Positions 5,597 to 23,812 of a DNA stretch of 64,000 bases are shown piece after piece. Where the stretch lies: contig CAJWYF010000004.1 of the NCBI GenBank assembly GCA_913049535.1, positions 1-64,000 on the forward strand, read 5' to 3'. Source of the DNA: an uncultured Synechococcus sp. Lineage in GTDB: Bacteria; Cyanobacteriota; Cyanobacteriia; PCC-6307; Cyanobiaceae. The notes beneath the pieces are model-generated. The model saw nothing but the letters and a program-made list of their open reading frames with translations. It did not search any database and was not told the origin of the DNA. A program made the position numbers and the translations under genes. Position 1 is the stretch's first letter, and each line of letters opens with the position of its first letter.

Positions 5597-6722
5597 TCAT
5601 GCCCCGCAGTGTCGTCACCGAAGACGGCGAGACACGGTTGAGGTAGCGGAAGATCCAGTACTTGAAGATCGTCGCCAGGATCACTGGGAATGTGGCGATG
5701 AATAAGTCAATGAACTTCTCCTCTGCCGGGATCCCGAGGTGCGACGAGATGCCTTGCAACAGCACCGTCCAGCCCTCCGGGCTGTGGAAGCCGACAAAGA
5801 TGTCGGTGAACAGGATGATGACGAAGGCCTTGGCGTTGTCGCTGAGGCCGTAGACGACTTCATCAAAGAAACCCCGTAGGACGCGGATTTCATCGCGACC
5901 AAACAGGCACACCAGCACAAATCCAGCGGTGGCTACCAGATCGGCCAGGACATTTTTGATCGCCGTTGTGCTCTCAGAATCAGCTTCGTCCTTGAGTTCC
6001 TCTGCCTTTTGACTGAGCTTGAGCCGCAGCTCCTCGCTGGAGGGGGCGTCCTGGCCTTCCAGTAGCGCGGCAAATTCCAGTTCTGCTTTGTATTCCCTCA
6101 AGCTGGCAACCGCTGACTGCTGCAGCCGCGGCTTGGTGTAGCTGAGAAACGGGACATCCGGTGCGATCTGATCCACCACCGGGGAGATCAGGTAGGTGCG
6201 TGAGATCTGCTGCAGCAGCAAGGGCACCAGCACCATCAGCAGCAGGATGCGCAGGGACACCAGCGTGGAGTCACGACGCCGCCGGAAGCCAGCCACCACA
6301 TTGGCTTCTGCTTCCGGGTCCAACTGGTTCCGCACACGGTCAAACACCCCCAGCAAGCTGCGAGGCAGCGGGTCCGGCCGCTGCGAGAGCCCCTGATTGT
6401 CATTGCCGCGATAACGGCGAACCACGGACTCGATCAGCTGCAGCTGCCGTAGCTCCTGGTTGTCGAGTTCACCACGCCGGCGCTCAATGCTGCCCAGCAA
6501 TTCGCGGCAAACGATCAGTGCTGAACGAAACCGCCGGAAGATCTGAACCTGGGTGGCCTGCGGCAGGCCCAGATCCACATTGGTGCGGACCGGCCTGTCG
6601 TTGAAATATTCCAGTTCAAGACCCTGAATCATCAAGGCGGCCTCGTAGGCCTGCTCCAGATCGCTGCTGAGCTCAAGCGAATCTGCCTTGGAGAAAGCGC
6701 CCAGCCAGTTGTTCAATCCCAT
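5583..6722 (-). CDS. pxcA: Proton extrusion protein PxcA (CemA family)
   Basis: PxcA is a plasma-membrane protein needed for light-induced, sodium-dependent proton release in cyanobacteria. Its plastid counterpart is CemA/Ycf10. The 379-residue product has a long hydrophilic N-terminal half, rich in Arg/Glu and likely helical. A first membrane segment lies near 155-185, followed by a charged region, then the C-terminal CemA-like block with FVLVCLFGRDEIRVLRGF, FTDIFVGFHSPEGW and FPVILATIFKYWIFRYLN. That block is the family signature. It heads a leftward cluster with cobU and trmL and overlaps cobU by 14 bases. Confidence 0.93.
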   Translation of the reverse strand: MGLNNWLGAFSKADSLELSSDLEQAYEAALMIQGLELEYFNDRPVRTNVDLGLPQATQVQIFRRFRSALIVCRELLGSIERRRGELDNQELRQLQLIESVVRRYRGNDNQGLSQRPDPLPRSLLGVFDRVRNQLDPEAEANVVAGFRRRRDSTLVSLRILLLMVLVPLLLQQISRTYLISPVVDQIAPDVPFLSYTKPRLQQSAVASLREYKAELEFAALLEGQDAPSSEELRLKLSQKAEELKDEADSESTTAIKNVLADLVATAGFVLVCLFGRDEIRVLRGFFDEVVYGLSDNAKAFVIILFTDIFVGFHSPEGWTVLLQGISSHLGIPAEEKFIDLFIATFPVILATIFKYWIFRYLNRVSPSSVTTLRGMNGGG

Positions 6723-20859: not shown

Positions 20860-21828
20860 TCATCTGGGACGAATGTAACGCTGTTTGAGCAGCTGGTAAG
20901 CCTCATTGAGGCGCCGCATGTCATCAGCGTTGCCCCCGGCATCCGGATGGCTGGCCAGTGCTTTTTGGCGATAGGCCTCTCGGATTTCGACCAAGGTCAA
21001 CTTGTGCCCCGCAGCCGTCGGCAACCCGAGCAGTTTCAACGAACCCTGGGTGCTCATCGTGCTTTGCAAATCCAGGAAAGGTGAACCTCGTCGCCGTCGC
21101 CTCAGCCGTTGCACCATCCGACCCACAAGTGACGGCACCCTTGCGGGCAGTTCTGCGGCACTGAAGGGATCTTCGAGCACACCCGCCGCCACGATGACCC
21201 GATCAACACTTGCTTCTCTGATCTCCCAGCCAGGGACGTAGCCCAACATCACTTGCTGCAGGGCATTCCAGGTGAAGGGTTTTCCCTCTGCGGCATCGGC
21301 ACTGGGCCAGATGTCATGACTGAGCCAGTGCACTGCCGCCTCCAGAACAGCGTTGTTGGGTTCACTGCCATACAGCGCCATCCAGTGCTGCTGCACGGCG
21401 CGGACCGCATCATGGAGCTGGGCCTCCTCCATCACCGCAAAGCGCTCGCCTCCGGCTTGAGCCTCACTCAGCTTGGGTTCTTTGAGGCTGTGACGCAGCT
21501 GGGTGGTGCGCCTGGAGACAAAGCCCGGCAGGTTGATGCCCAGTCCACGGGCCTGTTGATCACTTTGGTCCTCTTGTTCGTCGCTTTGAGCGTCATCGCC
21601 ACCGATCAGAACGATGGCCCCTTGCAGATGCTCTTCCTGCTGCGTCTCCTGATCCTCTGCAGCAAGGTCAGGCTCCTCATCGAGGTCACTGAGAACGGTA
21701 TCGAGCATCCGTTGGATGGCCTGTCCCCGGCTACGCAGTGACCATTGCTTGCGCAGCTCATCAAGCCGCTGAATGGTGTCCTTGCGCAGTTCCAGGCTGA
21801 CCCTCTTTGTTTCGCTTTCTGCTGACAA
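20860..21828 (-). CDS. Ribbon-helix-helix and J-domain fusion protein
   Basis: A 322-residue protein of unusual make-up. Residues about 6-45 (KRVSLELRKDTIQRLDELR...) look like a ribbon-helix-helix or CopG-type DNA-binding unit. Residues 50-85 are an acidic Gln/Glu/Asp linker. A helical middle domain contains QQHWMALYGSEPNNAVLEAA. An Arg-rich stretch (RLRRRRRG) precedes a C-terminal J-domain with His294-Pro295-Asp296, the DnaK-stimulating triad. It starts at TTG 21828, with no nearby ATG. It may bring DnaK to a DNA-bound or coiled-coil partner. Domain calls are by eye, the function inferred. Confidence 0.72.
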   Translation of the reverse strand: MSAESETKRVSLELRKDTIQRLDELRKQWSLRSRGQAIQRMLDTVLSDLDEEPDLAAEDQETQQEEHLQGAIVLIGGDDAQSDEQEDQSDQQARGLGINLPGFVSRRTTQLRHSLKEPKLSEAQAGGERFAVMEEAQLHDAVRAVQQHWMALYGSEPNNAVLEAAVHWLSHDIWPSADAAEGKPFTWNALQQVMLGYVPGWEIREASVDRVIVAAGVLEDPFSAAELPARVPSLVGRMVQRLRRRRRGSPFLDLQSTMSTQGSLKLLGLPTAAGHKLTLVEIREAYRQKALASHPDAGGNADDMRRLNEAYQLLKQRYIRPR

Positions 21829-21854: not shown

Positions 21855-23456
21855 CTATCGAGTCAGCCAGTTGCGCATCAACTTGATCGTGCGGGTGGGG
21901 TCCACCATCGCAGGTGCACCTGGTGGCCAGGCTCCCTGAGGCAGCACGGGCGGTGCGCTGGGCTCAAGCGCCGGTGGTGCTGGGGGTTCGCCAGCGAGCG
22001 CTGTGACCGGTTGTTCCTTGTCAACTTGAGGTGCTGTCTTCTGCAGCGCTCCCACCGGATTGGTCTTGAGTTGCGCCTCGCCGGGCGCTGGCGGAGCCGT
22101 GACGGCCATTGGTGCTGCAGCAGCTGTCTGCCGGGCCGTTTCCATCAAGCTCTCCTTCTGGCGCAGCGACGCCACTTGGCTGTCGGGAACAACACTGAGG
22201 AGATGCCCAGGTGTTGCATCAGCCGGGTAAACCAGGCTCACGCGCACCTTGCGGGGACGCTCAGCGTCGAGGTGCAGGGTCTTGAGCTCCAGGCTCTGAC
22301 CGGAGCGCATGCCGACATGAACTTCTTCATAGGCATCGCCTTCGCTGATGCCGATGGTTCCGCGGAAGGCGGTGAACTGCTTGCCCGCAAAGGTGGGGTG
22401 GCTGAGCATCAGGCGATGCATGCCCTCTCCCTTGAGATCGAGATCAATGTCGTATCGCACCCCGTAGGTCCCCACGTTGTCGAGGGAGGAATCACGCATG
22501 CGGCTGGCAAGCCTGTTGACCTGGTTCTCACCGGTGCCGAAGTGATGGCGGCTGGTGGTGGTGAGCGGAACGTGCAGGGGGAAGTGGCGCAGGTCGTGAA
22601 CGACATTGGCCTGGAAGCGATCGCCAATGGCCACACCGGCTACGCGGGAGAAGACCTCGCGTCTGACGATCTTCTCGACCTTGTCGAGGTAGACGCGACC
22701 ATCGGCAAGCTTGTTTGAATCCAGGACCGCCATCAGATCACTGTCCGTGCGTGGGTCCTCCGCGGCAACCACCGCCATTTGAAAGGGTCCGCTGCTGCGG
22801 CCTTTGATCAGGGCGTTGGCGATGCCCCGTGCTGGCAGGGTCGTGGAGAACAGCACAATGCGGCTTTTGGCCGGAATGACCACGCGCTCGGGCAGATCGC
22901 GATCCAGGTTGCCCCGCAACATCTGCACCGAGGTGGCATCCCCGGGGCCTGCATTCCAGGGGCGATGGCCCTGCGCCTTGACCCCCATCAGGCCGTTGGC
23001 TTTGTAAGGCGCCTGAAAGCTGTTTTGAACCGAACCACGATCCAAGCTCAACTCCACATCCTCATTGCCTGGATTGATGGCGATGGCGGCAATGGTCAGG
23101 GTTCCCCGTTGACGGGCAGAGCCCAGTCGTGCCCTGTCCTTGGGGTAGTACTTGTGATGGGCATGAATGCCGAAATCGCCGTTGAAGGTGTACTCGGCGT
23201 TGCGCAGCACCTCACCGGTCTCCGCCTTGGCTGAACCTGGCGCTGTGCTGACCAGGATCCCAGGCCCCACGACCTCCTCCGGCTGGTTGGAGTGCAGCAC
23301 CGGAACGGCATTGAACTGACCCTTGAGGGGGATCGCGCGTTGACCGGCCATCAAGGCCACATCAGCCCAGGCGGCCGGTGCAGCTCCAAGAACAACGGCG
23401 GCTGCGGCCAGGCAGAGGGGGCGCATGGGACTCACGAGGCTGACTGCTCTCACCAT
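21855..23456 (-). CDS. DUF3370 family exported protein
   Basis: A 533-residue cyanobacterial protein matching my memory of DUF3370. From ATG 23456 there is a signal peptide whose hydrophobic part is about 15-30, ending in AWADVALMAGQ. The body has RAIPLKGQFNAVPVLHSNQPE, ILVSTAPGSA, FGIHAHHKYYPKD and HFGTGENQVNRLASRMRDSSLDNVGTYG-type segments. The last 90 residues are Pro/Ala-rich and disordered. An ATG at 23426 would leave the signal intact and is the alternative start. It is probably periplasmic or outer-envelope. It lies 26 bases upstream of the RHH/J-domain gene and is likely co-transcribed with it. Function unknown. Confidence 0.78.
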   Translation of the reverse strand: MVRAVSLVSPMRPLCLAAAAVVLGAAPAAWADVALMAGQRAIPLKGQFNAVPVLHSNQPEEVVGPGILVSTAPGSAKAETGEVLRNAEYTFNGDFGIHAHHKYYPKDRARLGSARQRGTLTIAAIAINPGNEDVELSLDRGSVQNSFQAPYKANGLMGVKAQGHRPWNAGPGDATSVQMLRGNLDRDLPERVVIPAKSRIVLFSTTLPARGIANALIKGRSSGPFQMAVVAAEDPRTDSDLMAVLDSNKLADGRVYLDKVEKIVRREVFSRVAGVAIGDRFQANVVHDLRHFPLHVPLTTTSRHHFGTGENQVNRLASRMRDSSLDNVGTYGVRYDIDLDLKGEGMHRLMLSHPTFAGKQFTAFRGTIGISEGDAYEEVHVGMRSGQSLELKTLHLDAERPRKVRVSLVYPADATPGHLLSVVPDSQVASLRQKESLMETARQTAAAAPMAVTAPPAPGEAQLKTNPVGALQKTAPQVDKEQPVTALAGEPPAPPALEPSAPPVLPQGAWPPGAPAMVDPTRTIKLMRNWLTR

Positions 23457-23647
23457 GCGTCGCGCTTGAGACTCCGGTGGTGTCTCTGCAGATTTTCTTC
23501 TCCCTAGAGAGAAATGAAACCCAGAGGGGGCCTTGCGAGCTGCGCGAGTCACAGGGCCAGGGCGCGAGACAACAGATGCGACGTGCCGCGAGCTAGAACG
23601 AGCGCGTCGCGCACCATTTTCCCATGTTTCCCCTGTCTGGTTGCTGC

Positions 23648-23812
23648 ATGTCCGATCCCTTTTCGGATGAATCCCGCGCACGCCACCAGCGCCGCAAATT
23701 GCAGATGCTCAAAGGCTGGCGTGATGCGGTCGAGCGCCAGCTCTCCGCGGTCAATGCCGCCATCGGCACCCTTGAAAGCCAGATGCAGCGCGACGGCAAC
23801 GCCTCGTCCTGA
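23648..23812 (+). CDS. Small charged conserved protein
   Basis: A 54-residue protein starting at ATG 23648 and ending five bases before the convergent Ap4A phosphorylase stop. The sequence SDESRARHQRRKLQMLKGWR followed by an amphipathic helical segment (RDAVERQLSAVNAAIGTLESQM) predicts a helical, basic protein. I associate this pattern with a conserved small protein of marine Synechococcus. It is divergent from the DUF3370 gene with 191 bases between. Function unknown. Confidence 0.6.
   Translation: MSDPFSDESRARHQRRKLQMLKGWRDAVERQLSAVNAAIGTLESQMQRDGNASS

Follow-up and report, generated by a model that had tools for sequence, protein, structure and literature searches.

J-domains with an HPD motif stimulate DnaK; DnaJ brings DnaK to RepA, and T antigen works through a J-domain of its own. 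Ribbon-helix-helix (RHH) domains are obligate dimers that need dimerisation for folding, and they usually bind DNA with the ribbon. DNA binding and DnaK stimulation are known to meet in CbpA of Helicobacter pylori, a J-protein that binds DNA as a dimer and that acts on DnaK as a stimulator and on a repressor as a modulator (PMC7074700). In cyanobacteria, TrcR is an autoregulating RHH repressor that is reported missing from Prochlorococcus (PMC10272220). DnaK1 is reported missing in marine picocyanobacteria (PMC9239167), which leaves DnaK2 and DnaK3, and seven DnaJ proteins have been reported in marine Synechococcus WH7803 (PMC7393227).

Here we describe a gene in a 64,000-nucleotide stretch of DNA (the window) from an uncultured Synechococcus sp., the predicted product of which joins an N-terminal RHH domain to a C-terminal J-domain. 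Our literature search for RHH domains combined with a J-domain found no published description of such a fusion; the architecture appears to be uncommon, and its function is predicted here from sequence.

Domain architecture

A first-pass annotation of the window had proposed an RHH domain fused to a J-domain at positions 20,860 to 21,828. The open reading frame has exactly these coordinates, and the fusion is a constant feature of the family, which we represent by an alignment of the window protein with ORFs from 59 loci (60 sequences). Its features are as follows, with residues numbered as in the window protein.

20860..21828, minus strand: fusion gene (RHH, linker, middle domain, J-domain); 322 aa, TTG start, TGA stop
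21688..21807, minus strand: CopG-type ribbon-helix-helix, residues 8-47; RHH_1 profile matches, weak PDB matches to CopG and NikR
21541..21687, minus strand: acidic, poorly conserved linker, residues 48-96; 17 D/E versus 1 K/R, identity 0.19
Residues 73-75, inside the acidic linker: V-L-(I/V) patch; conserved, mean pairwise identity 0.60
21484..21540, minus strand: GIxLPGFVxxRTxxLRxSL motif, residues 97-115; mean pairwise identity 0.61
21097..21417, minus strand: helical middle domain, residues 138-244; without a Pfam family or PDB match
21079..21120, minus strand: Arg-rich stretch, residues 237-250; 7 Arg in 14 residues
20875..21042, minus strand: C-terminal J-domain, residues 263-318; Pfam DnaJ match above cut-off, Foldseek matches
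20941..20949, minus strand: HPD triad, residues 294-296; kept in 60/60 sequences

This domain order is close to certain. Both ends of the protein are conserved in all 60 sequences, which rules out a chance resemblance to, or a chance joining of, two domains. The acidic linker and the Arg-rich stretch that had been noted at first pass are both borne out by their residue composition. Mean pairwise identity in the aligned family is 0.48 for the RHH domain, 0.14 for the second linker, 0.51 for the middle domain, 0.63 for the Arg-rich stretch and 0.67 for the J-domain. A 34-row alignment has 40 invariant columns, distributed across all domains, and I98, L100, P101 and F103 of the LPGF motif are invariant in it. 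The VLI patch and the GIxLPGFVxxRTxxLRxSL segment, neither of which had been noted at first pass, may be short binding motifs within flexible linkers.

The middle domain had no match in the PDB and no Pfam family shared among the orthologues. It was present in 57 of the 58 genomes of the window's family (f1) in a phylum-wide sample of 386 cyanobacterial genomes, and in none of the 328 other cyanobacteria. The earlier annotation had considered that this region might belong to a J-domain co-chaperone of another type; we found no Pfam or PDB match to a known co-chaperone.

The N-terminal domain

The Pfam profile RHH_1 (PF01402) has a cut-off of 20.5 bits, and the window copy scored below it, with 13.7 bits over residues 9-42 in the full chain and also 16.9 bits. 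We attribute this weak score to divergence and not to a wrong domain call, since the window RHH domain lacks the LP and WG residues present in most of its relatives. RHH_1 was matched in 23 of 34 full-length orthologues; when the RHH segments were cut out of orthologues, ten out of ten matched, five of them above the cut-off (top score 29.2 bits). In the PDB, a CopG regulator matched the N-terminus weakly, and NikR gave a profile match over the RHH domain (E 0.0096; 1q5v residues 2-55). Standalone RHH proteins of related genomes share 41-60% identity with the fused RHH domains, and two out of five tested exceeded the RHH_1 cut-off. These profile matches and standalone relatives support the RHH/CopG-like unit that had been suggested for the N-terminus.

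The standalone proteins (L210-L216) are about 50-60 aa long and occur in several marine picocyanobacteria, where they are at most 60% identical to the fused domains. Two near-identical copies (L211 and L212) were found in one genome.

The start of helix B in RHH proteins forms the grip on the DNA backbone. R32, R34 and G35, which we take to be the start of helix B, are invariant in 60/60 sequences. In the ribbon, R9 is kept in 52/60 sequences and S/T11 in 59/60. At the third ribbon position, 50/60 sequences have E or D, an acidic residue in place of the usual contact residue of many RHH repressors. An AlphaFold model of the full chain reached a pLDDT of 48.7, a low value that reflects the three sequences in its alignment, and placed N-terminal helices at residues 16-28 and 34-50, where the RHH helices are expected. 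The isolated RHH segment was modelled as one continuous helix, an implausible shape that does not reproduce the RHH fold, from a three-sequence alignment and as a single chain of what would be an obligate dimer.

Our preferred, though tentative, interpretation is that an RHH dimer on DNA delivers DnaK to the bound complex. We consider the main rival, a client-specific co-chaperone, nearly as likely. Here the RHH domain would only dimerise or bind protein, and no DNA would be involved. The client, for instance a photosynthetic or ribosomal complex, would be held by the middle domain and the LPGF motif, and the J-domain would show it to DnaK. The acidic ribbon residue fits this alternative, as does the conservation of the middle domain (0.51) and the J-domain (0.67), which is at least that of the RHH domain (0.48), whereas the most invariant RHH residues, R32, R34 and G35, lie at the start of helix B, on the side turned to DNA, and not in the dimer core. 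Cyanobacterial DnaK/DnaJ pairs are also known in pilus-linked secretion (PMC9239167) and Rubisco assembly (PMC9948308). We regard a client-specific co-chaperone as a serious possibility, although short of probable.

The J-domain and its predicted DnaK partners

A C-terminal J-domain with an HPD triad had also been predicted, and this holds throughout the family. In the window protein, Pfam DnaJ (PF00226) matched residues 277-316 with 28.1 bits against a cut-off of 27.8, and the profile was matched in 34/34 orthologues. In helix II, R283 is kept in 58/60 sequences (K in the others), Y286 in 59/60 and K/R287 in 60/60, the positions with which E. coli DnaJ contacts DnaK. The J-domain mostly has a pLDDT of 69-84 in the full-chain model, and in a Foldseek search with this model J-domains ranked first (Tim14: probability 1.00, target TM-score 0.78), with weak E-values owing to the uninformative remainder of the modelled chain. 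Structure prediction, which the first-pass annotation had proposed as a check, thus supports the J-domain.

The NCBIfam DnaJ equivalog scored 17.8 in the window protein against a cut-off of 377. We found no Pfam domains corresponding to class A/B DnaJ traits, namely a G/F region, a zinc domain and CTD I/II after an N-terminal J-domain. Since the J-domain is C-terminal and these domains are lacking, the fusion protein is predicted to be a class C (type III) J-domain protein of picocyanobacteria.

Two alternatives concern this end of the protein. The first is a degenerate J-domain that acts as an interaction module, in the manner of Tim16, and does not stimulate DnaK. Foldseek does also match Tim16, a degenerate J-fold, and helix I is atypical, as the Pfam match picks up the model only from position 12. 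Degenerate J-folds, however, lose the HPD motif, and here 97-100% of the 60 sequences retain HPD and the contact residues of helix II. We consider this explanation very improbable. The second is a nucleoid protein of the CbpA kind, or a factor that remodels complexes of replication or partition, which would bind DNA broadly and bring DnaK with it. The Arg-rich stretch ahead of the J-domain would suit such a role, and the sequences nearest to the J part in the PDB are those of Tim14 and polyomavirus T antigens. RHH domains, however, usually bind specific sites, and the Pfam scan showed nothing in common with CbpA in the remaining chain, which makes this alternative unlikely even though DNA-binding J-proteins are known (PMC7074700).

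The window's genome encodes two full-length DnaK genes and has six J-domain matches, the fusion gene included. On the same contig, just past the window, an open frame of 172 codons has another weak match to the J-domain (C4:64266-64397, minus strand).

Distribution and evolutionary history

Long matches to the fusion protein were found in 57 of the 58 f1 genomes of the 386-genome sample. In the order that comprises Prochlorococcus, Synechococcus and their kin, the gene was present in 272/299 genomes (241/260 of those of good quality), and the best order-wide matches span the profile from end to end. Together with the confinement of the middle domain to the family, this answers the question of spread in cyanobacteria raised at first pass: the gene is near-universal, mostly single-copy and vertically conserved, and it is restricted to one cyanobacterial family. 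Prochlorococcus P9303_05031, considered as a candidate for the fusion gene, was ruled out as a GroES-like protein.

In genus g149 and its neighbour g158 (G530), we found ordinary J-domain matches only and no fusion gene. In a PheT tree with outgroups, a single-gene tree, these gene-less lineages fall on the outgroup side of a split (support 98/94) as sister to all carriers, the gene being absent from the deepest branch of the order, and the window's lineage is among the carriers closest to that split. G530 retains an intact PheT-RlmD-phycobilisome block without an adjoining fusion gene. The simplest reading is one early origin within the clade, followed by vertical descent.

The gene can also be lost. 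In one Prochlorococcus-like genome (G294), a decayed remnant with several stops lies between the Ap4A phosphorylase gene and PheT (L201, approximately 6130-6570), while the nearest sampled relative has an intact fusion gene; the decay indicates that the gene is dispensable there. In two further Prochlorococcus-like genomes, G583 and G520, the locus is without any match.

Searches of phages, plasmids and IMG/VR returned J-domain matches only, so a phage, a plasmid or a horizontally spread element was ruled out. One viral match (L145) reaches the middle region, with 25% identity over residues 140-310, but it comes from an ORF for a J-protein of 217 aa, and its clear similarity is confined to the J-domain.

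Genomic context

The gene directly upstream of the fusion gene is the following.

21855..23681, minus strand: DUF3370 gene; Pfam DUF3370, E 7e-97

The fusion ORF starts 26 nt past the DUF3370 stop on the same strand, and the two genes are likely to form one transcription unit in the window. The N-terminal stretch of the DUF3370 protein is signal-peptide-like by eye. The adjacency to an exported DUF3370 gene pointed out earlier thus stands in the window, but the link is weak: all examined Prochlorococcus-type loci keep the fusion gene without DUF3370 beside it, which rules out an obligate partnership. Our literature search found no mention of DUF3370.

The conserved gene order runs from a SpoIID-like gene through the Ap4A phosphorylase gene, a small opposite-strand ORF, DUF3370 and the fusion gene to a phycobilisome-family gene (opposite strand), an RlmD-like methyltransferase gene and PheT. 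In Prochlorococcus-type loci, the phycobilisome gene and the methyltransferase gene are often missing too; there the fusion frame lies approximately 320-390 nt from the Ap4A phosphorylase gene on the same strand, and the small opposite-strand ORF between them makes co-transcription unlikely. In the window, this small ORF (23624-23812, plus strand) lies between the Ap4A phosphorylase gene and DUF3370 and encodes 62 aa (MFPLSGCCMSDPF...TLESQMQRDGNASS) with no Pfam match. It is conserved in place in 30 of the 31 other loci checked, including those of Prochlorococcus type. The neighbourhood gives no firm pointer to a client.

No shared inverted repeat was found upstream of the gene, either in an upstream alignment of Prochlorococcus-type loci or among shared 7-mers of divergent intergenic regions. 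The strongest shared word upstream was GTTCTAGC, close to where the small opposite-strand gene begins. It is probably the promoter of that gene, and no conserved operator was found.

Proposed mechanism and comparison with known systems

From the domain content we infer that the fusion protein may bind DNA and may recruit and stimulate DnaK. In the favoured scheme of a DNA-bound class C J-protein, two chains would pair via the RHH ribbon and the dimer would bind an operator-like DNA site, while the flexible acidic linker would allow both J-domains to reach outward. The J-domains could then bind DnaK2 or DnaK3 and trigger ATP hydrolysis through HPD, loading DnaK onto a DNA-bound protein, either the J-protein's own chain or a partner that the middle domain holds. 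The loaded protein would be remodelled or released by DnaK, and the DnaK supply of the cell would in this way act directly on the DNA-bound complex.

Delivery of DnaK to DNA is supported at the C-terminal end by the universal HPD triad, the conserved helix II residues and the J-fold recovered by Foldseek, and at the N-terminal end by the RHH profile matches, the retention of R9, S/T11 and R32/R34/G35, and the standalone RHH relatives. The two full-length DnaK genes in the genome and the precedents of CbpA and TrcR point the same way. Against a DNA-bound protein are the acidic third ribbon position, the lack of an upstream inverted repeat, the single-helix model of the isolated RHH segment from a three-sequence alignment, and the score of the window RHH domain below the Pfam cut-off. 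On balance, we hold DnaK delivery to a DNA-bound complex with somewhat less than even confidence.

A narrower version, which we regard as rather doubtful, is a transcription factor that carries its own docking module for Hsp70: an RHH dimer bound to an operator would use the J-domain of the same protein to recruit DnaK in cis. If so, chaperone availability, and hence stress, would directly set how far promoters are occupied, and would do so in almost every Prochlorococcus and marine Synechococcus. These are among the most abundant phototrophs, with small genomes and few regulators, and a near-universal protein coupling RHH to DnaK would constitute a compact device for stress sensing or chaperone targeting. 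The domains predict HPD-dependent stimulation of DnaK and R34-dependent binding of DNA.

Several described systems share parts of this architecture. The J-domains of Tim14/Pam18 and polyomavirus T antigens are the best sequence and fold matches to the J-domain alone, of the HPDxGG type, but their hosts, roles and partner domains differ and only the J-domain is in common. NikR likewise has an RHH domain at its N-terminus with further domains after it; it ends in a nickel-binding regulatory domain, for which the fusion protein has no corresponding Pfam domain, and only the RHH part aligns. Standalone CopG/RHH regulators, including TrcR, share the RHH domain, and close small RHH proteins occur in related genomes, but these regulators are small and without a J-domain. 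CbpA of E. coli and H. pylori is a dimeric, DNA-binding and DnaK-stimulating J-protein (PMC7074700), as is proposed for the fusion protein. The CbpA J-domain is N-terminal and followed by a linker and CTD I/II, for which Pfam gave no match in the window protein or its orthologues; the fusion protein carries its J-domain at the C-terminus and has an RHH domain as its putative DNA-binding part.
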